Positions 21,031 to 52,336 of a stretch of 64,000 nucleotides of DNA are shown piece by piece. The position numbers and the translations under genes are program-made. Each line of letters begins with the position of its first letter. Positions within the stretch are counted from its first letter, which is position 1. Location of the stretch: NCBI RefSeq assembly GCF_028606985.1, contig NZ_CP117416.1, forward strand, positions 1,092,001 to 1,156,000, in the 5' to 3' direction. This DNA comes from Paenibacillus kyungheensis (GTDB lineage: Bacteria; Bacillota; Bacilli; Paenibacillales; Paenibacillaceae). The notes under the pieces were generated by a model. It was not told the DNA's origin. It made no database searches and was given only the letters and a program-made list of their open reading frames with translations.

Positions 21031-21284
21031 CGCGTGGTTATAAGGTTTTGGGAATAAATTATAGTTATAATTAAAAAAATATAAATTGAGAATCAGTCAA
21101 AACATGATCGTACCAACACTATTTGATATTAGCTAATTATCTAAACTTTTTTTCATAATTGGAAAATTTATCATGTAAATTCTGCTTTTTAAATATATAA
21201 TGTACTTAGCTGATTAATGTTATTCAAAACGAATAACTTTTGGGTACATGTTATGAAAGAGGTTTGGAAGGCAGGGGAAACCGG
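21031..21284 (+). promoter_or_regulatory. Leader/promoter region of the lasso peptide cluster
   Basis: AT-rich, with no gene. TATAAT at 21196-21201 is a candidate -10 box; the -35 is not convincing. A perfect 7-bp inverted repeat (GTTATTC / GAATAAC, 5-base spacer) at 21219-21237 sits just after the likely transcription start and could be an operator. The interval from the previous stop (20846) to here otherwise contains only the terminator. Confidence 0.45.
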
Positions 21285-22556: not shown

Positions 22557-24496
22557 GTACGATTGTAGGGATTTGGAATTTTCAACGTCAAAGCTCGGAA
22601 ACACTCGCACTTCAAGGTCAACGATTAATGAAAAAGATGCGACATTATCCTTCGGATGCTTCTGCTGTATGGCAAGATGAAGATATGTTTGTAGGCTGTC
22701 ATGATCGTTGGATTACCGAGGAATCAGTCAATCAAGTCGTTCCTTATCATGATCCGATCAGTGGTCTTGTGATTACAGCAGATGCGATTATTGATAATCG
22801 AGAAGAACTATTTGAAGCGCTCGGGATTAACCGCGCTGAAGGTAGTCAACTGTCAGATGTCTTACTGATTTTAAAAGCGTATCAAAAGTGGGGAGAATAT
22901 ACTCCCAAATATTTAATTGGTGATTTTGCTTTTATGATCTGGGATACGAAAAAGCATCAGCTTTATGGTGCACGAGACTGGTCAGGCAATCGAACCCTTT
23001 ACTATTATCACACCTCTTCTCAATTTGCATTTTCGACATTGATGGAGCCTTTATTTCAGACAGGTGATATTCAGAAAAAAATGAGTACTCCCTGGATGGC
23101 CGAATTTCTGACTATGGCTGGTATGACAGAATCTTTGGATATTAAAGGTACCGTATATGAAGATATTCTACAGTTGCCTCCTGCACACGCTATTATCCTC
23201 ACAGAGCAGCATAGTCATATATTCCAGTATGGTACGTTATTGCCAGAAGAACCGCTTCGACTTCGCTCGAACGGAGAATATGAAGAAGCTTTTCGTGATG
23301 TTTTTACTCAAGCCGTAAAATCTAAAGTGCGAACCCGGCTAGGAGTAGCATCAACGTTAAGTGGTGGACTAGATTCCGGCGCTGTTGTTAGTTACGCATC
23401 CAAAATTTTGGCAGAGCAGGGCAAGTCTTTACAGACCTATAGTTATGTACCGATTGCCGGCTTTGATGATTGGACGTCCGCAACCTTAGTGCCTGATGAG
23501 CGTCCATATATCGAGGAAACGTTAAAATATATTGGTAATGTTCAGGGGAATTATCTTGATTTTGCCGATCGTAATCCTTTGACAGAAGTAGATTCATGGT
23601 TAGACTTTTTGGAAATGCCATACAAATATTTTGAAAATTCATTTTGGATTAGAGGGATATTTGAACAAGCTCAACAACAAGGTGCAGGTGTTTTGCTAAC
23701 AGGAGCTAGAGGTAATTTTACCATCTCATGGGGACCTGCATTAGATTATTATGCAGTGCTTCTCAAAAAGTTCCAATGGACTAAATTATATCGTGAACTA
23801 AAATTGTATGGTCACAAAACAGGTGTAGGGCGTTCCCGGTTATTACCGATCATTCATAGCAAAGCTTTTCCGAAATGGAATCAGGCTGCTGCTTCAAAAG
23901 AAAGACCGAATCCATTGGTCTGGATCAATGCCGATATGGCGCGTCAGACCGGTATGGTGGAACGCGTAAAACAACAGGAAGAATGGTTAGTCGGTCGTGA
24001 AGTTCAAAATGCTTTTGACGTTAGACTAGAAAAATTTAAAAATCTAGCAATTGCGAACAAAAATGGAGCAATGACTTCTAAAATTTCTGAACACTATGGT
24101 GTTTGGGAACGTGATCCGACAAGCGATGCACGTGTAGTCCGATTCTGCCTTTCGATTCCTGTGGGACAATATGTACAGGACGGTATGGATCGCGCATTAA
24201 TCAGACGGGCTACTGCTGGTGATTTGCCTGATAAAGTAAGATTGAATCAAAAAGTGAGAGGCATGCAGCCCGCAGATTGGGTACAACGGATGCAACCTCA
24301 GTGGTCTTCCTTTACAGAAGAGCTTAGAGATTTATGTAAAGATCCTAAAGTGGCAGCATGGATGAATACGACTACGATTATGAAGGCTTTAGAAAAGATA
24401 GGCGAACATCCTGAAGCCAATGCAGCAGCCCATCCGGCTACCCGTATGCTGATGAGAAGCTTGATTGTTGGGCGCTTCATCCGCAACTTAGCATAG
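22553..24496 (+). CDS. Lasso peptide cyclase (asparagine synthetase homologue)
   Basis: 647 residues. The N-terminal region (about 1-210) is a class II glutamine amidotransferase fold without the nucleophilic Cys2 (it begins MSTIVGIWNF), as is usual for lasso cyclases, which do not use glutamine. The synthetase domain has the pyrophosphate loop STLSGGLDSGAVVS (residues 268-280). It adenylates the side-chain carboxylate of the ring Asp, and the core N-terminus then attacks to form the macrolactam. It overlaps the sulfotransferase gene by 4 bases and is followed after 33 bases by three precursor genes. Cyclase placed upstream of the precursors is an unusual order compared with the simple A-C-B arrangement. 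Confidence 0.93.
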   Translation: MSTIVGIWNFQRQSSETLALQGQRLMKKMRHYPSDASAVWQDEDMFVGCHDRWITEESVNQVVPYHDPISGLVITADAIIDNREELFEALGINRAEGSQLSDVLLILKAYQKWGEYTPKYLIGDFAFMIWDTKKHQLYGARDWSGNRTLYYYHTSSQFAFSTLMEPLFQTGDIQKKMSTPWMAEFLTMAGMTESLDIKGTVYEDILQLPPAHAIILTEQHSHIFQYGTLLPEEPLRLRSNGEYEEAFRDVFTQAVKSKVRTRLGVASTLSGGLDSGAVVSYASKILAEQGKSLQTYSYVPIAGFDDWTSATLVPDERPYIEETLKYIGNVQGNYLDFADRNPLTEVDSWLDFLEMPYKYFENSFWIRGIFEQAQQQGAGVLLTGARGNFTISWGPALDYYAVLLKKFQWTKLYRELKLYGHKTGVGRSRLLPIIHSKAFPKWNQAAASKERPNPLVWINADMARQTGMVERVKQQEEWLVGREVQNAFDVRLEKFKNLAIANKNGAMTSKISEHYGVWERDPTSDARVVRFCLSIPVGQYVQDGMDRALIRRATAGDLPDKVRLNQKVRGMQPADWVQRMQPQWSSFTEELRDLCKDPKVAAWMNTTTIMKALEKIGEHPEANAAAHPATRMLMRSLIVGRFIRNLA

Positions 24497-24529
24497 CAAC
24501 GAATATTATTTTACAGAGGAGGTGAAAAC

Positions 24530-24664
24530 ATGAACAAAGAAAAAATGCAATGGCAGGCTCCAACATTGGAAGTTTTAGATGTCAATGAAACAATGGCAGG
24601 TATTGGTTGGAGACAAATTGACTGGGTATCTGATCAAGACGCTGATTTGTACAACCCTAGCTGA
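24530..24664 (+). CDS. Lasso peptide precursor 1
   Basis: 44 codons, ATG behind GAGGAGGTGAAAAC. The leader (residues 1-22) carries the RRE-recognition pattern WQAPTLEVLD and ends NETM, placing Thr at the -2 position required for leader cleavage. The predicted core is 22 residues: ring AGIGWRQID (Ala1 amine to Asp9 side chain, nine-membered) and tail WVSDQDADLYNPS. The C-terminal Ser is the residue phosphorylated by HPr-kinase-like enzymes in paeninodin-type peptides. It differs from the other two copies in ring residues Trp5-Arg6. Confidence 0.93.
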   Translation: MNKEKMQWQAPTLEVLDVNETMAGIGWRQIDWVSDQDADLYNPS

Positions 24665-24708
24665 GGCATTTTTTAAAACGAAATTAACATTCAAAGGAGG
24701 TTATATTA

Positions 24709-24843
24709 ATGAACCAAGAGAAAATGCAATGGCAGACTCCAACGCTAGAAGTTTTGGATGTTAACGAAACAATGGCAGGTATCGGTTATAAGCAAATTGA
24801 CTGGGTATCTGATCAAGATGCTGATTTGTACAACCCTAGCTGA
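24709..24843 (+). CDS. Lasso peptide precursor 2
   Basis: 44 codons with an AAAGGAGG ribosome site. The leader is almost identical to precursor 1 (WQTPTLEVLD, ...NETM). The core has ring AGIGYKQID and tail WVSDQDADLYNPS. Compared with copy 1, only Trp5 to Tyr and Arg6 to Lys change in the core, which conserves aromatic and basic character. Confidence 0.93.
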   Translation: MNQEKMQWQTPTLEVLDVNETMAGIGYKQIDWVSDQDADLYNPS

Positions 24844-24890
24844 GCATTTAACATAACGATTCACCATTCTACTATAAGGAGGCTACTATA

Positions 24891-25025
24891 ATGAAAGAAC
24901 AAAAAATGCAATGGCAGACTCCAACATTGGAAGTTTTAGATGTCAACGAAACAATGGCAGGTATTGGTTACAAGCAAATTGACTGGGTATCTGAGCAAGA
25001 CGCTGATCTATATAACCCTAGCTGA
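24891..25025 (+). CDS. Lasso peptide precursor 3
   Basis: 44 codons with a TAAGGAGG ribosome site. The core has ring AGIGYKQID and tail WVSEQDADLYNPS, so it differs from copy 2 only by Asp13 to Glu. It is followed by a strong hairpin before the tailoring and processing genes. Confidence 0.93.
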   Translation: MKEQKMQWQTPTLEVLDVNETMAGIGYKQIDWVSEQDADLYNPS

Positions 25026-25067
25026 GTATTGTAAGCAGCACTGGGATAGAAAAGCACGCAATTGTTC

Positions 25068-25107
25068 AGAAAGTCCTTATACGAGTTAGTATAGGGACTT
25101 TCTGTTT
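25068..25107 (+). terminator. Hairpin between precursor genes and processing genes (attenuator)
   Basis: AGAAAGTCC with ATAC pairs with GTAT and GGACTTTCT around GAGTTA, followed by GTTTTAAT. Hairpins at this position in lasso operons are thought to terminate partly or protect the abundant precursor mRNA. The T-tract is short, so partial read-through is likely. Confidence 0.75.
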
Positions 25108-25170
25108 TAATAAAAGCAATCCTTTGAATAATATTCGGAGAAAGCAGAGTCATAGGCTCTATGGGAGGTA

Positions 25171-26145
25171 ATGACCATTTTTACCGTAAATAAAACTATG
25201 CATAAGACGATTTATCAAGCATTTGGGTTACGTTTTGAAAGTGAGATATTGTTGTCGGAATTGTTGCAACGCCAAGATATTGAAGAAGCTGATGTGAAAA
25301 TCGAATTTCAGGATTTATCTGAATGGAGATCTGTTGTTAATACACGCGAAAATAATTTTACGATGCAATCTATTGGATTTGTGTTTGAAATTCCAGATAC
25401 CGCTTTGTTTTGTATTCAAGAAGGCAAACGGATTATGATCCATCCGTTGCACGATGCGAATATAGACAAAATTCGTCTATATGTGTTGGGAACTTGCATG
25501 GGCGTATTGTTGTTACAACGTGGAATTTTGCCTTTACATGGAAGTGCAGTCGTAATTAATAATAAAGCATATGCGTTTGTCGGAGAATCAGGTGCAGGTA
25601 AATCTACACTTGCCTCTACTTTTGTACAATCTGGATTTGAATTACTAAGTGATGATGTTATCGCTGTAAGCTATGAAAATGGAGAGCCTGTTGTCCATCC
25701 TGCATATCCACAGCAAAAGTTATGGAAAGAAAGTTTAGACCTTTTTGGAATGTCAGAAGAGCAGTTCAAACCTCTTCATGATGAAGTCAGCAAATTTGCT
25801 ATTCCTGTTACCAAGCAATTTCGCAATCAGACCGTTCCTTTAGCAGGCGTATTTGAACTTGTCAAAATGGATAGCGAATATGTAGTTATGCGTGAAATGA
25901 ATCGTTTGGAAAGATTACATGCGATGATGCTACACACGTATCGTGGTGCTTTGATTCCAAGATTAGGGCTCAAACAATGGCATTTCTCAAGTGCAGCCGC
26001 TTTAGCAGGAGAGTTATTTGCTTTACAAATTTTACGTCCGACTTCTGGGTTTACAGCGCCAGAATTAATGAATCAGATTATGAGAAAAGTGCAACAAGAA
26101 GAAATGCAAGAGGATACAATCTATTCTACAAAACATTTCAACTGA
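25171..26145 (+). CDS. Lasso peptide tailoring kinase (HPr kinase-like)
   Basis: 324 residues. The fold is like HPr kinase/PEP-carboxykinase: LHGSAV (122-127), Walker A VGESGAGKST (137-146), LLSDDV (158-163) and a later cluster of basic residues. Homologues in paeninodin-type clusters (PadeK, ThcoK) phosphorylate the C-terminal Ser of the precursor before maturation; all three precursors here end in Ser. The start at 25171 is very close to its GGGAGG (2 bases); ATG at 25198 is an alternative but is 29 bases away. The gene lies 64 bases after the hairpin and 26 bases before the RRE gene. Confidence 0.9.
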   Translation: MTIFTVNKTMHKTIYQAFGLRFESEILLSELLQRQDIEEADVKIEFQDLSEWRSVVNTRENNFTMQSIGFVFEIPDTALFCIQEGKRIMIHPLHDANIDKIRLYVLGTCMGVLLLQRGILPLHGSAVVINNKAYAFVGESGAGKSTLASTFVQSGFELLSDDVIAVSYENGEPVVHPAYPQQKLWKESLDLFGMSEEQFKPLHDEVSKFAIPVTKQFRNQTVPLAGVFELVKMDSEYVVMREMNRLERLHAMMLHTYRGALIPRLGLKQWHFSSAAALAGELFALQILRPTSGFTAPELMNQIMRKVQQEEMQEDTIYSTKHFN

Positions 26146-26171
26146 AAATCAGATCAAAGGAGAGAATGTGA

Positions 26172-26486
26172 ATGAATACAAGCTTAATCGGACCCGATCA
26201 GGTCATTGAACAAAATAAACAATATATTGCTAGTGATATGAATGGCGAAACGGTAATGATGAACGTAGAATCTGGCAAATACTATAATTTGGGTATGGTC
26301 GGTGGACGAATCTGGGAGCTTAGTTCTTCTCCTGTATCTGTGCAAAATATTGTCAATACGTTAGTAGCTGAATACGATGTATCGTATGAAGTGTGTCTGG
26401 AGCAAGTTAGTGAATTTGCCGGACAAATGTTTAAAGAAGGTCTGATTGAAGTGGCTCCTGAACAGGATGGGCTTCGTGTGGACTAA
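26172..26486 (+). CDS. PqqD-like RRE protein (lasso B1)
   Basis: 104 residues, ATG behind AAAGGAGAG. It is a stand-alone RiPP recognition element: DMNGETVMMNVESGKYYNLGMVGGRIWELSSSPVSVQNIVNTL and VCLEQVSEFAGQMFKEGLIEV are typical of PqqD-fold proteins, which bind the leader by adding a beta strand. It would deliver the precursor to the leader peptidase and perhaps to the kinase. Its 3' end overlaps the next gene. Confidence 0.92.
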   Translation: MNTSLIGPDQVIEQNKQYIASDMNGETVMMNVESGKYYNLGMVGGRIWELSSSPVSVQNIVNTLVAEYDVSYEVCLEQVSEFAGQMFKEGLIEVAPEQDGLRVD

Positions 26487-26916
26487 GATCGCCAAATTCC
26501 GTAGTACCCCGATGCCTATGCGTAAATTAATGCTAGAAGCGTTAGTATATTTAGCGTGGGCTCGCTTTTTGAAAATGTTACCTTTTGCCAAAGTATCTCC
26601 GACACTAGGTTCTTATATGGAAGAGACTTCGTATGATCTAAACAGAGATCAGAAATGGCAAGGGGTACAGGTCTCAAGAGCATTGCATCGTGTAAGCGGG
26701 CATGTCTTCTGGGAAACGGAATGTATGGTGATGGGAATGGCAGCCATGAAAATGTTAGCAAGGCGTAAAGTGCCAAGCACTTTGTATCTGGGGATGCGTC
26801 GCAATCGGGCGGGTAAAGTAGCTGCACATGCGTGGGTTAGAAGTGGTGCTTTTTATGTTACAGGAGCAGAAGAAATTGAACAGTATACGGTAGTGGGGAA
26901 ATTTGCTAAAAACTAG
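26446..26916 (+). CDS. Lasso leader peptidase (transglutaminase-like, B2)
   Basis: 156 residues if it starts at TTG 26446 (AAGAAGG 5 bases upstream); ATG 26467 is the alternative (149 residues). It is a small cysteine-protease-fold protein with Cys93 (ETECMVMGMAAMKML) and His128 (AAHAWV), the catalytic pair of the transglutaminase-like family. The third catalytic residue is not obvious in the GAEEIEQY tail. It cuts the leader after the -1 residue so the cyclase can use the new N-terminus. It overlaps the RRE gene by 20-41 bases. Confidence 0.9.
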   Translation: MKWLLNRMGFVWTKIAKFRSTPMPMRKLMLEALVYLAWARFLKMLPFAKVSPTLGSYMEETSYDLNRDQKWQGVQVSRALHRVSGHVFWETECMVMGMAAMKMLARRKVPSTLYLGMRRNRAGKVAAHAWVRSGAFYVTGAEEIEQYTVVGKFAKN

Positions 26917-26925
26917 CATGAATAC

Positions 26926-26975
26926 AAAGTATACTATTCCACTCGGTTAATACTAGAGTAACATGTATATACTTT
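26926..26975. repeat. Intergenic inverted repeat before the nucleotidyltransferase gene
   Basis: AAAGTATA (26926-26933) and TATACTTT (26968-26975) are a perfect 8-bp inverted repeat, with an inner ACTC/GAGT pair. It could be a processing or pausing hairpin between the maturation genes and the next gene. There is no T-run. Confidence 0.4.
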
Positions 26976-27054
26976 AATGGATCTGAAAATCACTGAATGA
27001 ACGCTATAAACTGAACACATGATCAACATCAGTTTATATCCAAAGGAGTTCGGT

Positions 27055-28254
27055 ATGAATATAGATTGGGATTTAGACGTGCAGGATTTTCCTGTGGAAT
27101 TAAAATGTTTACTTGAACTGATGGCAGTAGATACAGATACTCCATCTGCAATCGATTGGTCGAATCATCGAATCAACTGGCAACAATTTTATTCACTAAC
27201 AAGGCATCATCGGGTGTACCCTACTATTCATGAACAATTTAGTGCAGAGCCTTTGTCTCAAGCACCAAAAGGGATGGTACAACAGCTTAGTGTTGATTAT
27301 AGTCGCAATGCACTGATTATGCTGCAATTAAGCGGTAAAATGGCGCAGGTTAGTGAAGCTTTGGATCAACAAGGTATCTATGCTTTGCAATTAAAAGGCC
27401 CGGCATTAGCAGAATTTCTTTATGGAAGTCTATCGCGCCGTACTTCTAAAGATTTGGATATTTTGGTTCATCCCGATCAGATTGAACAAGCAGAACAAGT
27501 ATTAGAGCAGTTAGGATATATCAAAACACAAGAAGTCTCTCGAATCGTAAGCGATTGGAAATGGCGTCAAAATCATGAATCATTTACTCATGCGACTACT
27601 GGAATAGAAATTGAATTACACTGGCGTTTGAATGGAGATGCAGGCGCGGAACCTAGTTTTTATGAATTATGGAGTCGTCGTCAGACATTAGAATTTGCAG
27701 GAACCAATGTGTATATGTTGGGCAAAGAAGATTTGATGTTTTATCTTACAGCACATGGTGCTCGGCATGCATGGTTTCGTTTGCGCTGGTTAGCGGATAT
27801 TGATCGCCTTGCACGTATGGAGCTCGACTGGGACAAGTTAACCGCTTTACTACGTCGTTACAAATGCACACATTTAGTCGGTCAGGCATTAATTTTGTCT
27901 GCTGCTATGCTTAATACACCGATTTCTCGGGAAATGGCTTTGTTGATGAGTACAGATCGTCCACAGGATCTGGCGCGTCGTGTCCTGATTTTTATTCGTG
28001 AACAAGTCAGCTTATGCCCTGAACCGGAAAGTGAAATACTGGCTCAGATTTATCGTAATTATCTTTTTTCTTTACGAACACCTGGACAGAAGGCGATTTT
28101 TTTAGCTCGGAAAATGGTGCCGGATACATGGGATACACAGACGCTTCCGTTACCTAAATCGCTACGCTTTCTCTATTATCCTTTACATCCATTTTTATTA
28201 TTACATCGTCGTATTCAAAGACGAGCTGCTTTGGAACGGGAGGTGGGTCAGTGA
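27055..28254 (+). CDS. Nucleotidyltransferase-family tailoring protein (NTP_transf_5-like)
   Basis: 399 residues from ATG 27055, with AAAGGAG 6 bases upstream. An upstream in-frame ATG (27019) has no site. The Pol-beta-like core is LKGPALAEFLYGS then KDLDILV (Asp133, Asp135), followed by the helical HGARHAWFRLRWLADIDRL segment typical of this uncharacterised family (PF14907). A relative in the pseudomycoidin lasso cluster has been reported to act on the phosphorylated C-terminal Ser. A sugar- or nucleotide-transfer step after the kinase is therefore plausible here. It overlaps the ABC transporter by 4 bases. Confidence 0.85.
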   Translation: MNIDWDLDVQDFPVELKCLLELMAVDTDTPSAIDWSNHRINWQQFYSLTRHHRVYPTIHEQFSAEPLSQAPKGMVQQLSVDYSRNALIMLQLSGKMAQVSEALDQQGIYALQLKGPALAEFLYGSLSRRTSKDLDILVHPDQIEQAEQVLEQLGYIKTQEVSRIVSDWKWRQNHESFTHATTGIEIELHWRLNGDAGAEPSFYELWSRRQTLEFAGTNVYMLGKEDLMFYLTAHGARHAWFRLRWLADIDRLARMELDWDKLTALLRRYKCTHLVGQALILSAAMLNTPISREMALLMSTDRPQDLARRVLIFIREQVSLCPEPESEILAQIYRNYLFSLRTPGQKAIFLARKMVPDTWDTQTLPLPKSLRFLYYPLHPFLLLHRRIQRRAALEREVGQ

Positions 28255-30047
28255 ATGCTATCAGCGCTTATATGCGACAACTGCATGACTTCGCGGGCAA
28301 GCGCCTTTATATCTACGTATTCCTGATGTTGATGATTAGCTGTCTGGATGGATTAAGTATTTATTTACTTGTTCCGTTGCTTAGTCTGGTTGGGTTATTT
28401 GGAACACAGGGTTCAATGCCTATGGCTTGGTTATTTGAGCCGTTGCAGCGTATTCCAGCGAGTATGACATTATTTGTGGTACTTGGCATGTACAGTGTAT
28501 TGATGATTGTACAGGGATTAATCCAGCGTAAACAGGCTGTAATGGGAACAGAGATTCAGCAAGGATTTGTTAATAATTTGAGAATTCGTACGTATCGTTC
28601 GATTTTGCGTGCGAATTGGACCTTCTTTTTACGTAAACGCAAATCAGACTTAAGTCATGTACTTACTTCAGAATTAGCGCGTGTGAGTCAAGGAACCAAT
28701 CTAGTGATGCAATTATCTACATCCTTTATTTTTATGGTGATCCAAATCGCATTTGCGATGGTATTATCGGTACAAATGACCTTATTAGTGATTGTCGGTG
28801 GGGTGTTGTTAACGCTGTACTCACGTAAATTTGTACGACGTGCCAAACAGATGGGGGATCGAACTACCTTTTTATCACAAGAGTATTTTTCAGGGATGCA
28901 AGAACATTTAAGTGGAATCAAAGATATCAAAAGCAATATGTTAGAAGCTTCGCATTTTGAATGGTTTAGAAGTATGTGTGGCAAGTTAGAAAAAAATGCG
29001 ATTCAATTGGTTCGTTTGAATTCAGGAACTCAATTTATTTATAAAATCATTTCGGTTGTATTTATTATTATGTTTGTCGTCTTGTCAGCTCAAGTGTTCA
29101 AATTACAACCAGAGCGTTCTATATTGATTATTTTGATTTTTGCTCGCTTATGGCCTAGATTTGGCGGTATTCAATCTTCACTAGAGTATATTGGTGCGCT
29201 TGTTCCTGCTTTCCATGCGGTAACAGCATTACAAGAAGAATGCGATCAAGCAGAAGAATCTTACAAAGCAGTAGCACCCGGTCAAGTAAAAACAGTTCAT
29301 ATGACCAAGGGACTTAGCTGTGAAAATGTATCTTTCCGCTATCTAGAAGATCAAGGTAATGCGCTGAACAATATCAATCTATTTATTCCTATCGGTAAAA
29401 TGACAGCGATTGTAGGACGTTCAGGAGCAGGAAAAAGTACGCTGATTGATCTATTAATGGGACTGATGGAACCGCAAGAAGGTAAAGTCACTGTAGATGG
29501 AGAGACATTAACCGGTGAACGTTTGCAGACATGGCGTAATTCGATCGGATACGTTTCGCAAGAACCTTTCTTATTCCATAGCAGTATTCGTGAAAATCTG
29601 TTACTAGTTGATCCACGTGCGAAAGAAGAGCAGTTATGGGAAGCCTTATCTTTTGCAGCATGTGAAGATTTTGTCCGCAAATTGCCTGAAGGATTAGATA
29701 CTGTAATCGGTGATCGTGGTGTGCGTCTATCTGGAGGAGAACGTCAACGGATTGTACTGGCACGAGCAATTCTGCGTCAACCGGAAGTACTGATACTGGA
29801 TGAAGCAACCAGTTCACTAGATAGTGAGAATGAAGCGAAGATTCAAGCAGCGATAGAGAAGCTCAAAGGTAAAATGACTTTGATCGTGATTGCTCACCGT
29901 TTATCTACGATCCGTGATGCTGATCAAGTGGTCGTATTGGATCAAGGACAGATCGTGCAACAAGGTGAATTTGGAGCGCTATCTCGCGAAACCAAAGGCA
30001 CATTCCATCAATTATTAACCAAACAAACGGCTCTACAGAATGCTTAA
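28251..30047 (+). CDS. ABC transporter (membrane + ATPase), lasso peptide exporter/immunity
   Basis: 598 residues. The N-terminal ~310 residues form a six-helix exporter membrane domain. The C-terminal ATPase has Walker A VGRSGAGKST, Q loop, signature RLSGGERQRI, Walker B VLILDEATSSLD and the H switch IVIAHRLST. There is no N-terminal C39 peptidase, in keeping with the separate B2 leader peptidase. Such transporters export the mature lasso peptide and give self-protection. It is the last gene of the + strand operon. Confidence 0.92.
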   Translation: MNAISAYMRQLHDFAGKRLYIYVFLMLMISCLDGLSIYLLVPLLSLVGLFGTQGSMPMAWLFEPLQRIPASMTLFVVLGMYSVLMIVQGLIQRKQAVMGTEIQQGFVNNLRIRTYRSILRANWTFFLRKRKSDLSHVLTSELARVSQGTNLVMQLSTSFIFMVIQIAFAMVLSVQMTLLVIVGGVLLTLYSRKFVRRAKQMGDRTTFLSQEYFSGMQEHLSGIKDIKSNMLEASHFEWFRSMCGKLEKNAIQLVRLNSGTQFIYKIISVVFIIMFVVLSAQVFKLQPERSILIILIFARLWPRFGGIQSSLEYIGALVPAFHAVTALQEECDQAEESYKAVAPGQVKTVHMTKGLSCENVSFRYLEDQGNALNNINLFIPIGKMTAIVGRSGAGKSTLIDLLMGLMEPQEGKVTVDGETLTGERLQTWRNSIGYVSQEPFLFHSSIRENLLLVDPRAKEEQLWEALSFAACEDFVRKLPEGLDTVIGDRGVRLSGGERQRIVLARAILRQPEVLILDEATSSLDSENEAKIQAAIEKLKGKMTLIVIAHRLSTIRDADQVVVLDQGQIVQQGEFGALSRETKGTFHQLLTKQTALQNA

Positions 30048-30115
30048 TACTCACTATTCCAACACTGGAAAAGTAGAGGCTAAGTCACTGTACAGCCGTT
30101 TTTCTTTTGGATTAA

Positions 30116-30712
30116 TTAAAGTGTCCGTTGATCTAATTTAGCCATTACTTTAGCGACACATTGTTCTACAGACTGGTGTTCCGTATCTAGCGTTAATTCA
30201 GGTTGTTGAGGAGCCTCATAAGGAGCACTAACCCCTGTGAAGTTCGGAATCTGACCTGCACGAGCTTTTTTGTATAATCCTTTAGGATCACGCTCTTCAC
30301 AAGCAGAAAGGGAACAATCAATATACACTTCAATAAAATCGCCTTCATCAAATAAATCACGCACCATTTGCCGATCTTGAGCATGAGGAGAAATAAAAGC
30401 AGCAATCACTATCGTACCTGCATCGATAAATAATTTGGCAACTTCTCCGATACGACGCAGATTTTCTTTGCGATCTTGCTCTGAAAATCCGAGGTCACGA
30501 TTGAGTCCATGACGAATATTATCTCCATCAAGTACATAACAAGCACGCTCACGTGCGAATAATTCTTTTTCCAGCGCAAATGCGAGTGTAGATTTCCCTG
30601 AACCGGAAAGCCCTGTTAACCAGATAACTACACTGCGTTGTCCGTATCGTTGCTCACGTTCTTTGCGTGTGATATTGGAAGACTGCCAGGTGATATTTCG
30701 TGAAGATTCCAT
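30116..30712 (-). CDS. cysC: Adenylylsulfate (APS) kinase
   Basis: 198 residues from ATG 30712, preceded by AAGGGG; ATG 30748 upstream lacks a site. The usual CysC length is about 200. The P-loop is [15 protein letters not shown] (Walker A 34-42), with [34 protein letters not shown] and FISPHAQDR characteristic of APS kinase. It converts APS to PAPS, the sulfate donor for sulfotransferases. No ATP sulfurylase or PAPS reductase gene is next to it. Instead it converges on the lasso cluster that contains a sulfotransferase, which suggests a dedicated PAPS supply (inference). General sulfate assimilation is the alternative. Confidence 0.92.
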
Positions 30713-30885
30713 TTGAATTGAGCCCCTTTGCTGACAATATGTATTCATTCAATTATATCAGCAATTGGGTTAAATCTCTAAGCGACTTTATTAATAGTCA
30801 TAAGATACAGGAACTTGAATAAGGAAGTTTTATTATGGGAGAAGAGAGAGGATCGTTGAGTGATTTTTTGTATGTATACCGCTAA

Positions 30886-45204: not shown

Positions 45205-47100
45205 ATGAAGATTCTGTCCAAAGCCTTAATCGGGGTTTTAATCGCAGTTATAGTGGTCGTCTTGGCGTTATCTTTATTTTCAACTCAAAGTGAAAAACGA
45301 ACAGGTCATTCTATTAATTACTGGCAAATTAAATGGCAATCGCAAAATACGTTAACATCCAAACCATGGGATAGTGATCAAGATAGCCCCTGGATTTCAT
45401 CTGAAATTATGAAAGATGGCAAACCGGTGAATAGTTCATCAGCATGGATTCGTATTCCTTTGCCTGAATTATCGTGGAATACAGCCGGTGTATTGATTCC
45501 GGAACTGAATGGTAAGCATATTATTGTGTATTTGGATCAAGATAAGATTTTTGAATCGAAACGTAGTTATGCCTATGAACAAAATCAATTGTTATTACCA
45601 CTAACCAAACAAGATTCTTACAAGTTGCTGTATATCTGGGTAGAATCGGCGCGCGAACAGATTAGTCTGAAGCAAGGCATTATGGTTGGCGATTATCAAG
45701 ATATGTTGATTTCTTATGTTAGCTCGGATCTGATTGATGTGGTACTGGGTAGTGCTTGTATTTTTATCTCTCTGGTCATGGTGATCTGTTCTGTATTTTT
45801 ACGACGAGATCAATTAAGAATGTGGCTTAGTCTAGCAGCCATTATTCTTTCTCTTGGCATATTAGTGGTAACTTACTCGCCATTTTTGTTTACTTTTTAC
45901 CCGACTTATTACAAATTGTATTCGGTTTTACTCGATTTGAGCTTATTTATCTTATTACCTGCGTTGCTTTACTTTTTTGAATGTGTGTTTGGTAGTGGTT
46001 ACAAAGGCATCATTACTAAAATGAAAAAAATCCAATACGCCTATTCGTTTATCTGTGTAATGGCAATGATTTTTAACATTTTAACAAATGAACGATACTT
46101 TGCAGTCTACTACTTTATTTCTGTCAAAACATTAGGTATTCTGTTAATTCTTCAATTATTGATTTTGATGGTCGTAGCAGTAACGTATGCTTTTCGCAAA
46201 AACAAAGATGCAATCTTATTCGCTTCCGGCTTTTCTATTTTCGCTTTAATCAGCGGGGGAGAATTAACATGGTTTTATATTCAAGCTGGAAGTTATAGTG
46301 TAACCCTCTGGAAATGGGGCGTAATGATCTTTGTGATTTCACTAATATCTGTGATGGCAAGACGATTTGCTCAAAATCATCAACAGATGGTGCTCTACTC
46401 CAGTCGCTTAGAATTATTTAACAATGAACTTCAGCGCTCAGAAAAAATGGACATTATCAGCGAACTTGCCGCTTCTGTAGCTCATGAAGTACGCAATCCG
46501 TTACAAGTGACACGTGGATTTTTGCAATTGTTACAAATGAATACAGATGATAAAGGACGAGAGCATCTCAAGATTGCCTTAGAAGAACTCGACCGCGCAT
46601 CAGCGATTATTACAGACTTTTTAACATTTGCCAAACCTGAATTTGATAAAGTTAATACACTTAATTTGGCACAAGAATTCCAACATATCGAAGGGATTAT
46701 GCGACCACTTGCTACATTAGCAGGAGGAACGATCACTATGAATATCCCTGAAAATATTGATATCCGGGGCAATTCTTCCAAGTTCAAGCAAGCTTTAATT
46801 AATATTGTGAAAAATAGTATAGAAGCTTTACCTGAAGAAGGTAAGATTCATATCTGGGCAGAACAAAATGACAAAGAAATTGAAATTCATATTCAAGATA
46901 ACGGAAGTGGTATGACAGAAGAAGAGTTAAAACGATTAGGAGAACCATACTTTTCGAATAAAACCAAAGGAACAGGCCTGGGGCTGATGGTGACTTTTCG
47001 CATTATAGAAGCACTCGGGGGAGTATTAGAATTTAAAAGTAAAAAGAATGTAGGCACAGAAGCTGTTATTCATCTTCCAGCAGCGGACCCGCAAGTCTAA
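45205..47100 (+). CDS. 7TM-type membrane sensor histidine kinase
   Basis: 631 residues. There is an N-terminal membrane segment (about 7-25), an extracytoplasmic beta-rich domain (about 28-165) and then about seven membrane segments (about 175-395), the 7TMR-DISM-like layout. The HisKA domain has SVAHEVRNPLQVTRGF (phospho-acceptor His427). HATPase_c has NIVKNSIEAL, IQDNGSGMTEEEL and GTGLGLMVTFRI. No response regulator gene is adjacent. It converges on the NHLP peptide/ComQ-like pair, so it is worth testing as a receptor for that peptide. However, it uses a HisKA domain, unlike ComP (HisKA_3), so any link is inference. Confidence 0.88.
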   Translation: MKILSKALIGVLIAVIVVVLALSLFSTQSEKRTGHSINYWQIKWQSQNTLTSKPWDSDQDSPWISSEIMKDGKPVNSSSAWIRIPLPELSWNTAGVLIPELNGKHIIVYLDQDKIFESKRSYAYEQNQLLLPLTKQDSYKLLYIWVESAREQISLKQGIMVGDYQDMLISYVSSDLIDVVLGSACIFISLVMVICSVFLRRDQLRMWLSLAAIILSLGILVVTYSPFLFTFYPTYYKLYSVLLDLSLFILLPALLYFFECVFGSGYKGIITKMKKIQYAYSFICVMAMIFNILTNERYFAVYYFISVKTLGILLILQLLILMVVAVTYAFRKNKDAILFASGFSIFALISGGELTWFYIQAGSYSVTLWKWGVMIFVISLISVMARRFAQNHQQMVLYSSRLELFNNELQRSEKMDIISELAASVAHEVRNPLQVTRGFLQLLQMNTDDKGREHLKIALEELDRASAIITDFLTFAKPEFDKVNTLNLAQEFQHIEGIMRPLATLAGGTITMNIPENIDIRGNSSKFKQALINIVKNSIEALPEEGKIHIWAEQNDKEIEIHIQDNGSGMTEEELKRLGEPYFSNKTKGTGLGLMVTFRIIEALGGVLEFKSKKNVGTEAVIHLPAADPQV

Positions 47101-47195
47101 GGGGTTCGCTGCCAGAAGGTTGTAACAGTTTTTTTGTGTACGATTGTATGACATGTATAAGTATAGAAAACCATATTAACAATACAAGGGGAATA

Positions 47196-47438
47196 TTACC
47201 AACCAGCGTCAACTTTCACTTTAGCGTCAGCCATCATAGATGAAGGCTTTGGAGGAATTACCAGATAGAATTCATCGCTTTTTTCTTCAACTGTTTTGAG
47301 TTGCACATGTTCTGGAAAAGAAATACCCAAGACATCTTTCAATGCTGATTTTGGATCGGTTTTTAACATCTCCATAAAACTAGGGTCTTCCCACGCCTTT
47401 TGAATAACTTGTGCTTGAAAAATAGCTTGGCTGGACAT
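47196..47438 (-). CDS. NHLP-type leader peptide precursor ending in Gly-Trp
   Basis: 80 residues, ATG with GGGAGG 9 bases upstream. The bulk matches the nitrile-hydratase-like leader of NHLP RiPP precursors: AQVIQKAWEDPSFMEMLKTDPKSAL, then LGISFPEHVQLKTVEE and EFYLVIPPKP. There is no GG cleavage motif. After the PPKP element only about 15 residues remain (SSMMADAKVKVDAGW), so the core must be very short and ends in Trp. The gene is 65 bases downstream of a ComQ-like isoprenoid enzyme, on the same strand. ComX pheromones are prenylated on a Trp near the C-terminus by ComQ, so prenylation of this Trp is a natural hypothesis. No LanM, YcaO or radical-SAM enzyme is nearby. Confidence 0.82.
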   Translation of the reverse strand: MSSQAIFQAQVIQKAWEDPSFMEMLKTDPKSALKDVLGISFPEHVQLKTVEEKSDEFYLVIPPKPSSMMADAKVKVDAGW

Positions 47439-47503
47439 ATTAATCTTCCTCCCTTAAATGGTTATAATTACCTATTCAGTGTATCATGTCTAATTCTAAA
47501 AAT

Positions 47504-48526
47504 CTATGAAGATGTAAGGTCTTTTTGAATAAAGTATAGTAAGCTTCCCTGTAAAAGGGTATTTCGAGCTTCATGGATAGAGGTGGCTGCTTCATGCAAT
47601 TGCTCAATTAAATAATTCCGAAATGCAATTAAAGAGTCGGATACAAACAATGAAGGATCACTGGTAAAAGAAGATTGTGCATACTGAGCATACCGACGAA
47701 TAACTTCTTGATCATAGATCGCTTGCTGCACTTGTACCGCAGTAACTTTATCTGAAAATAAAGCTTGATGATGCTCGACTGCCTCATAGCGAATAAAAGC
47801 GAGCAAGCAATTGTAATTGCGTTCGATCATATCTTCTTGCCAATCGCTAAGATCATCATTCATTTGTAATACAATCAAAGCTTGATCCAATTGTTGTAAT
47901 AGATCAGGTAACATATACATACAGTCCAATTGAAGCAACATCGCAATTAAAGAAATCTTCAATGGACTCACTTTACTTGCAATTTGTTGTGGTTGTTCAA
48001 ACAAATAATCGGCATCGGCTTCATTGTATACAGCGCTTGCCCACTCGGCTAAAAACTGCTTATAGTATTGCCAGAACGAAGAGTTGTTACCTAGATTTTC
48101 TCCACAGATACTTACAAATTCATTCCAGAATAACTGACTAAGCGGGATCAGATCATGTAATTGATCTGTTGATAAATTAGGTGTATCCATAAGATCATCT
48201 TGAATAAAAAAATGAAGCATACAAAAAATATTAGCAACACCCATACGATGCGATAATTCAGGCAACGATTGCAGGTGAAGGGAAGAAACAGTAGCTGAAG
48301 AGGGATGACTCACTGCTTTAGCCGTATGAACTTGAATCGTTTCGGCTATCCAGAAAGGTAACAAATAACAGACATAATTTTTGGTGCTATGTTTTTGTCG
48401 GATATCAAATTTGTCTAGATAGGCTAATCCTAATTCATGTAGTGGCTTTGGAAAATGGGCTACTTTTTGCTTCGCTTCCTCAAAGACAGCATCTAATTGA
48501 AGTTCAAATGGTTTTAACCAAAGCAT
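47504..48526 (-). CDS. ComQ-like class 1 isoprenoid biosynthesis enzyme (polyprenyl synthetase fold)
   Basis: 340 residues, ATG with GAGGAG 9 bases upstream. All-alpha. The first Asp-rich motif is HFFIQDDLMDTP (about residue 110) and the second is MNDDLSDWQED (about 230), matching the two metal-diphosphate motifs of trans-prenyltransferase-fold enzymes and of ComQ. The rest is too divergent for a housekeeping farnesyl or geranylgeranyl diphosphate synthase, and no other isoprenoid genes are near. The next gene on the strand codes for a small peptide with a C-terminal Trp. A peptide prenyltransferase is therefore the favoured role; a terpene synthase is the alternative. Confidence 0.75.
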   Translation of the reverse strand: MLWLKPFELQLDAVFEEAKQKVAHFPKPLHELGLAYLDKFDIRQKHSTKNYVCYLLPFWIAETIQVHTAKAVSHPSSATVSSLHLQSLPELSHRMGVANIFCMLHFFIQDDLMDTPNLSTDQLHDLIPLSQLFWNEFVSICGENLGNNSSFWQYYKQFLAEWASAVYNEADADYLFEQPQQIASKVSPLKISLIAMLLQLDCMYMLPDLLQQLDQALIVLQMNDDLSDWQEDMIERNYNCLLAFIRYEAVEHHQALFSDKVTAVQVQQAIYDQEVIRRYAQYAQSSFTSDPSLFVSDSLIAFRNYLIEQLHEAATSIHEARNTLLQGSLLYFIQKDLTSS

Positions 48527-48809
48527 TAGCTTCCACTCCTCAAATTCTTATATAAGCAAAGAACTTTTTACAGGTAGTATACGACATCATTTGAATATAT
48601 TGGATGTTCATGTGTTATTATATCGAACTTTATACACGTTGACTAACAAAATTATCAATAATACATGTATGATATTGTCGAAAATCATACATATAGCCTG
48701 AGTAGATAGACATATTCATAAAGATAAAAAATAAATTGCTAGGGAATAGATACAAAAAGTGAATACCGCTCGTCTTTCTTATAGCTGCAGCGGAAAGGAG
48801 CATGACAAC

Positions 48810-49316
48810 ATGGACATTCCGGAACCGGAACAATTTCAACAGATATTTTATGAACATTATCCAATCGTCAAACGTAAACTTCATGCATTATTACGTGACG
48901 AAGCTATAGCCGATGATCTGGCACAGGAAGTCTTTCTCCGTCTATATCGCAATCCACCCGATGATCCGCAAGCGATAGGGGCTTGGCTACACAGAGTTCT
49001 GACCCGGATTGCTTATGATTATATGGATAAAAAGGCAAGAGAACGCCGACTGCAAAATAAACAAGAACAATACTATGATCTTCAACACTCTCCACCTTCG
49101 GGTGAGGATATCGTGATACAGCAAATGGAACAAGAAGAGGTACAAGAATGGCTGGAACAATTACCTCAACGGGATAGGCAAGCTTTACTCATGAAATACT
49201 CGGGTTACAGTTACGCAGAGATCGCTGAAGAACTTCAATTAAAGCAACCTATTGTCGGTACATTACTACATCGGGCAACCAATAAATTACGTAAAAAAAT
49301 GCTACGGTCTACGTAA
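48810..49316 (+). CDS. ECF-type RNA polymerase sigma factor
   Basis: 168 residues from ATG 48810, with AAAGGAG 9 bases upstream. Region 2 (about 10-75) has DDLAQEVFLRLYRNPPD and AWLHRVLTRIAYDYMDKK. Region 4 (about 110-165) has LPQRDRQALLMKYSGYSYAEIAEEL then VGTLLHRATNKLRKKM, the -35-binding helix-turn-helix. It is followed after 25 bases by an anti-sigma-like membrane protein and an ABC transporter, giving a self-contained envelope-stress module. The target promoter is unknown. Confidence 0.92.
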   Translation: MDIPEPEQFQQIFYEHYPIVKRKLHALLRDEAIADDLAQEVFLRLYRNPPDDPQAIGAWLHRVLTRIAYDYMDKKARERRLQNKQEQYYDLQHSPPSGEDIVIQQMEQEEVQEWLEQLPQRDRQALLMKYSGYSYAEIAEELQLKQPIVGTLLHRATNKLRKKMLRST

Positions 49317-49341
49317 ATAAAGAGCAAAAGGAGGAATAGAC

Positions 49342-50490
49342 GTGAGCAAGTTTCCACAAGACCCTAATAACATCCATCCTACAGGGCCAGCAGATTCATC
49401 GAATGCCACAGATGAAGCATGGGCAAAATTAAAAAGCCAGCTTGTTAATGAAACGCCACATTCTAACTGGGAAAAATGGGCCAATGAACCGCATTTATTT
49501 CAAATTGATGATCCATCATCACAACCACAACAATCTCAAAGGAGTGCAATTACTATGAAAAAATCTAATGAAGAACAATCATATACTTCATCAACAGAAA
49601 CAGAACCAACCGTTAAGCGTCGTCGTAAAATGAGTTCCGCTCGCAAAAGATGGACAACAGGTATTGCTGCGTGTGTGGTCGCTGGAGCAGTGATAGCTAC
49701 TCCATTTGGCAATAATGCAATGGCTGCCTTATTGGATCAATTCCGTGTACAGACGTTAACAGCTGTAGATAGTCAGCAATTGTCCGATATGTTCGATCAA
49801 TACAAAAGTAAAAATGAATTAGGGGAAATGGAAAGTCGGTTCGGAACATTTAATTCAACGTATGGCAAACTAGAAGGGGAATTTAGTCCTTCCAAAGCAG
49901 CAGCGTTATTAAATTACACATTAATGAAAGAAGCTGCTCAAGATGATAAAGAATCGGTACAAGTACAAAGTTCAAGAACAGAGACATTAATTATGAATGT
50001 CGATGAGGTTAACAAAGCGATCCAAAGTCTTGGAGGGAAAGAATTGTTACCTCAATCGCTGAACAATACTCCGATTACTATGTATTTCCCGGAAAGCATT
50101 TACTACACGATGTTTAAAGGTGAAGATATAGCATCTTTAACCCAAACTAAAGTTCCAACGGTCCAATTTGATGCTTCTGTTTCTACAGATGAAGTATTTA
50201 AAGCGATTGCTGATCTGCCATTCTTGCCGCAATCACTTAAAGACTCATTGCAAAGCGATAAAATTATTAACGGTTCATTGCCATTACCTATTGAATCAGG
50301 CGGTAAAACGGAACGTGTGACTATCGCAGGAGAACCTGTTTTGATCTCAGTGTATACAGATAATGAGAATCCAACATCTTATAGTGGAACATGGATTCAT
50401 AATGGAGAATTATTTACATTGGATGGTGGAAGTGCCTATACCACATACGAATCGTTTACAAAAGAAATCGAGAAGTTGATTCAATCATGA
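49342..50490 (+). CDS. Anti-sigma-factor-like membrane protein
   Basis: 382 residues, GTG behind AAAGGAGG. The cytoplasmic N-terminus (about 1-110) is hydrophilic and begins with a DEAWAKLKSQL helix. There is one membrane segment (about 113-133: WTTGIAACVVAGAVIATPFGNNAMAALL), then a ~245-residue extracytoplasmic domain. No Zn-binding HxxxCxxC motif is seen. The position directly after the sigma gene suggests it holds the sigma factor at the membrane. It overlaps the ABC ATPase start by 4 bases. Confidence 0.75.
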   Translation: MSKFPQDPNNIHPTGPADSSNATDEAWAKLKSQLVNETPHSNWEKWANEPHLFQIDDPSSQPQQSQRSAITMKKSNEEQSYTSSTETEPTVKRRRKMSSARKRWTTGIAACVVAGAVIATPFGNNAMAALLDQFRVQTLTAVDSQQLSDMFDQYKSKNELGEMESRFGTFNSTYGKLEGEFSPSKAAALLNYTLMKEAAQDDKESVQVQSSRTETLIMNVDEVNKAIQSLGGKELLPQSLNNTPITMYFPESIYYTMFKGEDIASLTQTKVPTVQFDASVSTDEVFKAIADLPFLPQSLKDSLQSDKIINGSLPLPIESGGKTERVTIAGEPVLISVYTDNENPTSYSGTWIHNGELFTLDGGSAYTTYESFTKEIEKLIQS

Positions 50491-51467
50491 GTACAGTAGC
50501 GATCGATATTCAGCAATTAACAAAAGAATATGATAATGGTCGTGGTTGTCGCAATGTAACGATTAGTGTGGGAGAAGGGGAAGCCTTTGGCTTCCTCGGT
50601 CCCAATGGCGCAGGGAAAAGTACACTGGTCAAAATGTTAGTTGGATTAACAGCACCCACTTCAGGAAGTGCTACATTATTTGGTGATCCTATTGGTTCTT
50701 TAGAAGCCAAGCGACATATCGGTTATCTACCCGAGCTGTATCGTTACCAAGAATGGTTAACCGGTGAAGAAGTTGTTCGGTTGCATAGTCGTCTGTGTGG
50801 AATGGATCAGAGTACAATTAAGCCGCGAATCAAGCAATTGTTAGATCAAGTAGGTATCGGTAAGCGTGGAACAGACAGAGTCAAACATTATTCTAAAGGG
50901 ATGCAACAACGTCTAGGGATGGCTTGCGCATTAGTCAATGATCCACCTATTTTATTTCTCGATGAACCTTCTTCAGCTTTAGATCCGATTGGACGCTTAG
51001 AAGTACGTGAACTGCTTAAAAATTTAAAAAATGAAGGTAAAACGATCTTTTTAAATTCTCATTTGTTAGAAGAAGTAGAAAGTCTATGTGAACGCATAGC
51101 ACTACTGAATAATGGACAGATTTTGCGTCATGGACAAGTCAGTCAGGTCTTGTATACTCAGACCAAATGGAGATTCAAAGTAGGTGGATTCACACCGGAG
51201 ATTCTACCGTGGTTAAGCGAGACTAGCGGTATTTCGATAGAGCGATATGCTACACCAACGATATCATCTGCAACGACCACACTGCCTGTAGGACAAGAGA
51301 CCGTCTGGTTAGAAGCAACGATAGATAACGAAGAGCAGATTGGTTGGTTGAATACTTTAATCGTGAATCAAGGAATGACCTTATACAATGTAGAACCAGT
51401 CAAAGAAAAATTAGAAGAATGGTTTATGGATGCCGTATCCGGGCTAAGTCACAGGGGGGAGCAATAA
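50487..51467 (+). CDS. ABC transporter ATP-binding protein
   Basis: 326 residues. Walker A is GPNGAGKSTLVKML, the signature is YSKGMQQRLGMA, Walker B is PILFLDEPSSALDP and the H-loop is LNSHLLEEVE. The CcmA/NatA/BcrA-like type has a ~100-residue C-terminal extension. It pairs with the membrane protein that begins at its stop codon (TAATG) and is coupled to the anti-sigma-like gene upstream. Likely roles are antibiotic or peptide efflux. Confidence 0.92.
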   Translation: MSTVAIDIQQLTKEYDNGRGCRNVTISVGEGEAFGFLGPNGAGKSTLVKMLVGLTAPTSGSATLFGDPIGSLEAKRHIGYLPELYRYQEWLTGEEVVRLHSRLCGMDQSTIKPRIKQLLDQVGIGKRGTDRVKHYSKGMQQRLGMACALVNDPPILFLDEPSSALDPIGRLEVRELLKNLKNEGKTIFLNSHLLEEVESLCERIALLNNGQILRHGQVSQVLYTQTKWRFKVGGFTPEILPWLSETSGISIERYATPTISSATTTLPVGQETVWLEATIDNEEQIGWLNTLIVNQGMTLYNVEPVKEKLEEWFMDAVSGLSHRGEQ

Positions 51468-52336
51468 TGACAACAGTGATTGGTATGACCTGGAAAGAAT
51501 TATTACGTAAAAAAGTGCTAATGATGACGCTGATTATGACAGTGTTATTTATTGTTGTTTTCTCATTTATCGCTCAAATCTTAGGTAAATCATCAGATGG
51601 CATTCCCAACCATGATTTAATTGCTCAATTTATGAATGGAGCTTCTATTTTGACCTTAGGTTTCTTTTTCGGAAGTTTTATTTTAGCTTTTTTAATTATT
51701 TTTAGTTCGTTTTCTTCGATCTCTGGAGAAGCCGAAGTGAGTATGATGCAAGCGATGTTAACTCGCCCCATTTTGCGTTGGAAATGGTATGTAGGGCGCT
51801 GGTTAGGGTATACGTTATTTGGTATCATCTATGCTTTATTTTTGTATATTTCAATTGTTATTATTGCAAATATCTTTGCGACTGTACCGCAGACTTTGAT
51901 TGTACATATACAATCGTTTTTATTATTTGCACTAACTGTACCTGTTCTGGTCACCGTTACTTTTTTGGGAGCTACCTTTTTTTCGGCACTAGGAAATGGT
52001 GTATTTATGACGATGTTATATGGAGCAGGTTGGTTAGGCGGTATGGTAGAGAAATTATCTAGTAGCCTTGACATGAAGCCAGAAGTGGCACGTTCTCTGT
52101 ATAATATTACAGGCATGATTTCATTAGCGATGCCTGCAGATGCTATTCAACGTAAAATGTTAGCTGTTTTGTTAAATGTAGAACAGTTGACAGGTATGTT
52201 TAATATTGATGAGCAAATGAGAGGTCGTATGGGGGTAGGGCAAGTTCCTTCAACAGCTTTTATTATCTATACTTTAATCTACACGATTATTTTATTTTTC
52301 TGGGGGATGCGTCGCTTTTATAAAAAAGATTTTTAA
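51467..52336 (+). CDS. ABC transporter permease (ABC-2 type)
   Basis: 289 residues from ATG 51467 (overlapping the ATPase stop by one base, with GGGGGGAG upstream). Six membrane segments, with a longer extracellular loop after the first and a SMMQAMLTRPILRWKWYVGRWLG segment typical of ABC-2/NatB-like permeases. It is the last gene of the sigma/anti-sigma/ABC operon, which ends at a strong hairpin. Confidence 0.88.
   Translation: MTTVIGMTWKELLRKKVLMMTLIMTVLFIVVFSFIAQILGKSSDGIPNHDLIAQFMNGASILTLGFFFGSFILAFLIIFSSFSSISGEAEVSMMQAMLTRPILRWKWYVGRWLGYTLFGIIYALFLYISIVIIANIFATVPQTLIVHIQSFLLFALTVPVLVTVTFLGATFFSALGNGVFMTMLYGAGWLGGMVEKLSSSLDMKPEVARSLYNITGMISLAMPADAIQRKMLAVLLNVEQLTGMFNIDEQMRGRMGVGQVPSTAFIIYTLIYTIILFFWGMRRFYKKDF

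Follow-up and report, generated by a model that had tools for sequence, protein, structure and literature searches.

What does a predicted isoprenoid enzyme do beside a short peptide that ends in tryptophan, and is its product a signal read by the kinase encoded next door? This question is raised by a locus in a 64,000-nucleotide stretch of the Paenibacillus kyungheensis genome (contig NZ_CP117416.1), hereafter called the window, to whose first letter all coordinates refer. Judged from its sequences, the locus is a PalQ/PalX/PalP system in which the enzyme very probably prenylates the Trp of the peptide, and the three genes together form a good candidate for a prenylated-peptide signal directed to a KinB-type kinase. 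The genes are:

47504..48526, minus strand: palQ-like gene, predicted Trp prenyltransferase resembling trans-isoprenyl diphosphate synthases (trans-IDS), 340 amino acids
47196..47438, minus strand: palX-like gene, precursor peptide with a nitrile-hydratase-like leader (NHLP), 80 amino acids, C-terminal Trp (...VKVDAGW)
45205..47100, plus strand: palP-like gene, membrane histidine kinase, 631 amino acids, tail to tail with palX

In vitro, PalQ of Paenibacillus alvei is reported to prenylate the Trp at the C-terminus of PalX, an NHLP peptide, and the PalQ/PalX/PalP cluster to be conserved in various Paenibacillus (Miyata, Ito and Fujinami 2023, PMC10853753); prenyl donors of C5 to C15 served in the assays that the paper describes. 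The window likewise encodes an NHLP precursor with a final Trp, a predicted trans-IDS-like prenyltransferase and a cluster histidine kinase. The pair is a member of this published kind and not the new system that an earlier note on this DNA had taken it for, given that the combination of NHLP leader, Trp prenyltransferase and cluster histidine kinase was published in 2023 (PMC10853753). The same note's proposal that the isoprenoid enzyme prenylates the C-terminal Trp draws support from homology to that in vitro case. Unlike in P. alvei, where the core reads DNVRRFFW, the window core is the unrelated ...KVKVDAGW. The two enzymes are 33% identical, measured against the P. alvei-like PalQ of genome G273, with the residues of the first and second aspartate-rich motifs (FARM and SARM) and the Gln kept.

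Both genes lie on the minus strand, enzyme gene first, with 65 nucleotides between them (47439–47503); this arrangement, the motifs QDDLMD and NDDLSDWQED and the terminal VDAGW had been read correctly from the letters in the earlier note. Its assignment of the leader now has a formal basis, since the peptide exceeds the cut-offs of both TIGR03793 (E 5.3e-16, 58.2 bits against 50.9) and Pfam NHase_alpha (39.3 bits against 27.2). In the enzyme, the FARM is DDLMD at 110–114, the Gln is Q221 and the SARM-like motif is DDLSDWQED at 224–232. D110/D114, Q221 and D224/D228 have the spacing of D89/D93, Q197 and D200/D204 in the G273 enzyme, and the Asp and Gln positions named for PalQ in PMC10853753 are conserved. 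The predicted structure (pLDDT 93.0, pTM 0.91) consists of helices only, as expected of the all-alpha protein that the note had described, and on this model the enzyme has the trans-IDS (isoprenoid synthase) fold. Kinship to Pfam, NCBIfam or PDB entries by sequence was rejected, as no match rose above chance level (PDB E 0.48 and 0.52); a Paenibacillus nuruki contig encodes a homologue of 81% identity.

The locus also invites comparison with ComQ/ComX/ComP/ComA of Bacillus subtilis: the enzyme is of the same fold superfamily (PMC10853753), it adjoins the peptide, and a membrane kinase lies next door. The likeness of the window enzyme to ComQ concerns fold class, gene order and chemistry, set by description and not by comparison with the ComQ sequence; among the structural matches listed there was none of ComQ, a negative without weight. 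Unlike ComQXPA, the window has an NHLP leader and a kinase core of KinB type (HisKA, PF00512), whereas ComP carries HisKA_3. A ComQXPA locus of four adjacent same-strand genes including a response regulator was not found, the kinase gene being convergent and having no ComA-like regulator beside it. Closer in one respect are ChrPC and Ord1, trans-IDS-like or related Trp prenylators that share the Gln before the SARM, although ChrPC, which carries a cyclase domain, works on an internal Trp, and Ord1 on free Trp (PMC13290415).

Among 394 genomes of the family, the NHLP model matches 337 and the enzyme profile 326 (E up to 0.001), mostly with one enzyme per genome. When the two lists were compared by eye, every enzyme-bearing genome had an NHLP match, and 11 genomes were NHLP-only (G125, G222, G262, G277, G283, G284, G291, G297, G330, G354 and G393). 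The family lists contain no enzyme-only genome; enzyme homologues without the peptide gene would, according to the earlier note, have counted against it. The pairing is not a matter of chance, because enzyme and peptide stand together in the same order and on the same strand in all 16 genomes of the genus. In a class-wide draw of 398 genomes the enzyme occurs in 36, of which 35 belong to this family and one to another family of the same order; none lies outside the order. In that other-family genome (G688), the genes for peptide and kinase face each other tail to tail, with that for the enzyme in divergent orientation.

Loci were sampled from 156 of the 394 family genomes, one each, comprising the 16 of the genus and 140 picked from the matches listed, favouring higher scores; NHLP copies elsewhere in enzyme-bearing genomes are outside the counts. 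Homologues of palX were present in 156 of these loci, of palQ in 152 and of palP in 152. With the window neighbours and the open reading frames (ORFs) of nine further loci as queries, and stretches of about 4.5 kb on each side in most loci, no other ORF recurred in more than 37 of the 156; the neighbouring ABC ATPase was found in 28 and the MFS gene in 16. Trp lies within the last seven residues of all 165 peptides from the sampled loci. By comparison, none of the 19 distinct, mostly weak NHLP-like ORFs of the NHLP-only genomes has it there, and the stretches around them contain no enzyme. As far as sampled, Trp is conserved only with the enzyme, as the earlier note had predicted, the control being modest in that just 3 of the 11 genomes hold an NHLP above the model cut-off.

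Four of the 156 sampled stretches lack the enzyme (G041, G023, G049 and G051), and in all four the peptide still faces a kinase. The enzyme is on another contig in G041, G023 and G049, and in G051 it lies about 4 kb off, beside a second peptide and kinase. At the enzyme loci of G049 (L335) and G023 (L337) a KinB-like kinase gene is the direct convergent neighbour of the enzyme gene and no NHLP peptide was detected in the space between, and the palX of these genomes faces a different kinase on another contig; at that of G041 (L336) neither kinase nor NHLP stands beside the enzyme. Elsewhere, L196 (G312) holds one enzyme followed by five tandem palX-like peptides, each with one residue after Trp, and at L188 (G273) the palX resembles that of P. 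alvei, but its frame leaves the published PalX sequence beyond DNVRRF. The published core DNVRRFFW, searched as a degenerate DNA pattern, was found in none of 19 genomes of one related genus.

The position of the Trp is not the same throughout. It is the last residue in 112 of the 165 peptides and is followed by one residue in 33, two in 8, four in 10, five in one and six in one, the last being the frame-departing peptide of G273. In the window's genus, 10 of 16 genomes have peptides ending in EPAAMW plus four residues; in other genera one or two residues can follow it. Enzymes that accompany only terminal Trp all keep DDxxD as FARM (107 of 107), whereas the 43 with a non-terminal Trp have DExxD (21), DAxxD (1), DKxxD (1) or DDxxD (20), and His stands at position 107 in 28 of these 43 against 0 of 107. 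All 152 enzymes have the Gln that precedes the SARM. On a quick tree of 151 enzymes, many of whose forks are weak, the Trp position changes label 8 times and in few clades, so the 43 enzymes represent a few events and not independent cases. (The 149-residue enzyme stretch of L223 was set aside from the tree and the Trp-position counts, and L234, which has two kinds of peptide, from the residue comparison.)

Such enzymes may modify an internal Trp in the manner of ComQ, or they may act after a protease has trimmed the tail. Prior trimming, by which all PalQs would use a C-terminal Trp, is in our view possible but somewhat doubtful. It would agree with the P. alvei enzyme, which requires a C-terminal Trp and lost activity in the reported assays if residues follow it (PMC10853753). 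Against it stand the enzyme changes that accompany a non-terminal Trp, namely the altered FARM in 23 of 43 and the His. Those changes in turn count for less in that they fall in few clades and that DDxxD is kept in 20 of the 43.

The earlier note left the convergent kinase gene at 45205–47100 unmentioned. Its product, PalP, opens with a hydrophobic segment, continues with some 140 residues and six or so further hydrophobic segments, and ends in a HisKA/HATPase core. HisKA (PF00512) and HATPase_c exceed their cut-offs and a 7TMR-DISM match falls under its own; the best NCBIfam models, AtoS (170.4 bits) and then KinD (151.4 bits), both stay far below cut-off. Against solved structures the core matches KinB of Geobacillus stearothermophilus by far the best (PDB 3d36, 197.8 bits; next kinase 101.9), with 46% identity over about 220 residues of the catalytic half, although unlike KinB the 631-residue PalP has a large N-terminal sensor part. 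In a KinB-core search of its own genome PalP ranks top of 37 matches (200.1 bits; next 123.8). By homology, PalP has a KinB-type phosphotransfer and catalytic core.

This kinship extends across the relatives. Within the genus the locus kinase is the best KinB-core match in 12 of 16 genomes, while in the remaining four (G002, G004, G007 and G015) the best match lies about 14 kb from the locus on the same contig; these best kinases score 173–206 bits and any other kinase at most 124.6. In G002 the intervening ORFs, judged by eye, resemble sugar ABC transporters and a LacI-type regulator. A convergent KinB-like kinase stands within 400 nucleotides of the peptide in 149 of the 156 loci, and three further loci have the kinase upstream of the enzyme instead. 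The P. alvei kinase entered this comparison via G273 (L188). The window locus contains no response-regulator gene; the nearest such domains belong to a hybrid kinase at 7505–11017, with others beyond the window.

A further pointer comes from TGTCGAA, which we take to be the Spo0A-box consensus. It occurs within 300 nucleotides upstream of the kinase gene in 52 of 148 loci, compared with at most 14 in 200 letter permutations and with 51 of 544 other genes of the same stretches. Of 66 such sites, 41 sit 39 to 95 nucleotides from the assumed kinase start, defined as the first Met of the open frame. Upstream of palQ the enrichment is weak (17 of 151, against at most 15 in 200 permutations). Shared ancestry of the loci makes the counts non-independent. 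In the window's genus the motif is nearly missing before palP, occurring at one locus (L039).

By homology with the in vitro P. alvei case, the first step is almost certainly that the NHLP domain docks on the trans-IDS-like enzyme, so placing the C-terminal Trp in the active site beside the conserved Gln; a prenyl group from the host pool would then be transferred to indole C3, with closure to a pyrroloindole. Probably, a protease would next cut after the NHLP domain and a short prenylated, Trp-ended peptide would leave the cell. More tentatively, we suggest from gene order, kinase kinship and the Spo0A boxes that the convergent KinB-type membrane kinase may sense this peptide and feed the Spo0F–Spo0B–Spo0A relay. 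The system would then work like ComQ–ComX–ComP but report to the sporulation pathway. The broadest form of the proposal, which we hold with a little more reserve, is that Trp-prenylated PalX fragments might report cell density to a KinB-type kinase and the Spo0A phosphorelay in most Paenibacillaceae, that Spo0A feeds back on palP in many lineages, and that the enzymes of two clades have moved to an internal Trp with an altered first Asp-rich motif.

Several results weigh against this signalling model or parts of it. The window enzyme is only a third identical to PalQ, and prenylation here is predicted from homology; Foldseek alone, queried with the enzyme model, returned zero matches at E ≤0.001. 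The family is not uniform, as 53 of the 165 peptides carry 1 to 6 residues after Trp, unlike the substrate that P. alvei PalQ requires. A Spo0A box in the window palP promoter was rejected, as no TGNCGAA lies in the 300 nucleotides upstream of the gene. Likewise rejected was specific co-evolution of peptide core and kinase sensor: across 144 of the 156 loci their distances showed no co-variation beyond relatedness, the partial rank correlation with the core being 0.11–0.20 for the sensor and 0.22 for the catalytic domain. Among the ORFs tested in the 156 loci, palX had no recurrent partner gene for export or proteolysis, and this bears on the sensing step. So does the presence of a long KinB-like kinase (an open frame of 600–700 amino acids scoring at least 170 bits against the KinB core) in at least 32 of the 68 genomes that lack the enzyme; such a kinase either has a role of its own or still listens for a signal that has disappeared. 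Many relatives also have short KinB-like kinases (about 420 amino acids) that score equally well, in enzyme-less ones equally well or better, so PalP may be a KinB paralogue. One review, finally, states that the B. subtilis sporulation kinases have no homologues in P. polymyxa (PMC6429003).

Some of the same evidence would suit a prenylated peptide that is secreted as a membrane-active or antimicrobial lipopeptide, with the kinase sensing stress or merely regulating it. In engineered tests antimicrobial peptides became more active when PalQ had prenylated them (PMC13290415), and the long kinase that remains in enzyme-less genomes is easily accommodated. The hypervariable core, with a mean pairwise difference of 0.85 compared with 0.42 for the leader, would suit either a pheromone or an antimicrobial. 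We nevertheless regard this explanation as unlikely: the kinase accompanies the pair far more constantly than any other ORF tested, and it is the kinase that the peptide faces in all four loci whose enzyme lies apart from the peptide. A wide, mostly single-copy presence, such as that in 326 of the 394 genomes, is moreover atypical of bacteriocins. A further alternative makes the enzyme a synthase of free terpenes or of isoprenyl diphosphates, and the NHLP gene an unrelated neighbour. It was rejected as very improbable, on account of the co-occurrence of enzyme and peptide across the family and the invariant Trp of the sampled loci. The genome also encodes two other polyprenyl synthases (PF00348), and the Gln that precedes the SARM is described as characteristic of Trp-modifying relatives (PMC13290415).

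Should a signal to the kinase prove to be the role of the prenylated peptide, a KinB-type kinase would gain a chemical input. Present in most genomes of a large spore-forming family and tied to such a kinase, the system would be a candidate cell–cell signal for sporulation and biofilm decisions. The 152 enzyme loci also provide natural enzyme–substrate pairs differing in Trp position, of use for peptide lipidation tools. To the account in PMC10853753, the present analysis adds the family-wide counts, cases of natural peptides that continue beyond Trp, and the relation of the kinase to KinB. A link between the enzyme–peptide pair and KinB or sporulation was not found among the open-access papers listed, most subscription papers being outside the scope of the search. 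Published statements on the kinases themselves are that Kin1377 of P. polymyxa, described along with Kin1038 as a sporulation kinase, restores sporulation in a B. subtilis kinA kinB mutant (PMC6429003), that KinA–E are highly conserved in Paenibacillus (PMC12826061), and that eight P. polymyxa strains are without comQXPA while a kinB gene is present in P. polymyxa (PMC6052121).

Three smaller features accompany the genes:

48676..48682, plus strand: TGTCGAA, a presumed Spo0A box about 150 nucleotides upstream of palQ; as a lone 7-mer in one genome, weak
48617..48645, minus strand: sigma-A-like promoter match TAGTCA-17-TATAAT upstream of palQ, 10/12 matches
47080..47112: strong stem-loop overlapping the end of palP, a possible palP terminator, with T-rich DNA after it on the plus strand

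The promoter match is no evidence of function, since the region holds 6 sigma-A-like sites against 7.9 in shuffles. The RNA fold of 47070–47150, which includes the stem-loop, has −31.7 kcal/mol (z −4.35); a consensus terminator scan did not list the stem-loop. Of the enzymes typical of known NHLP peptide classes (proteusin, lanthipeptide, TOMM), LanM, radical SAM and YcaO proteins were absent from a Pfam scan of the kinase, the enzyme, the sigma factor and an 85-residue ORF, the other ORFs of 44–52 kb being judged by eye. Running divergently from palQ, at 48813–52336, are genes for an extracytoplasmic function (ECF) sigma factor and an ABC transporter, and one further ORF. The sigma factor has homologues in 7 of the 156 loci, 6 of them in the genus, and is not a constant part of the locus.

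Elsewhere in the window, 21240–30748 contains a lasso-peptide-like cluster with three tandem, similar 44-residue ORFs (24530, 24709 and 24891) that resemble precursors. Its genes include an asparagine synthase, an HPr-kinase-like protein (under cut-off), Transglut_core3 and NTP_transf_5, with an ABC exporter recognised by eye; a sulfotransferase gene lies directly upstream, and an APS kinase gene downstream on the other strand. The predicted product is a candidate sulfated and/or phosphorylated lasso peptide.
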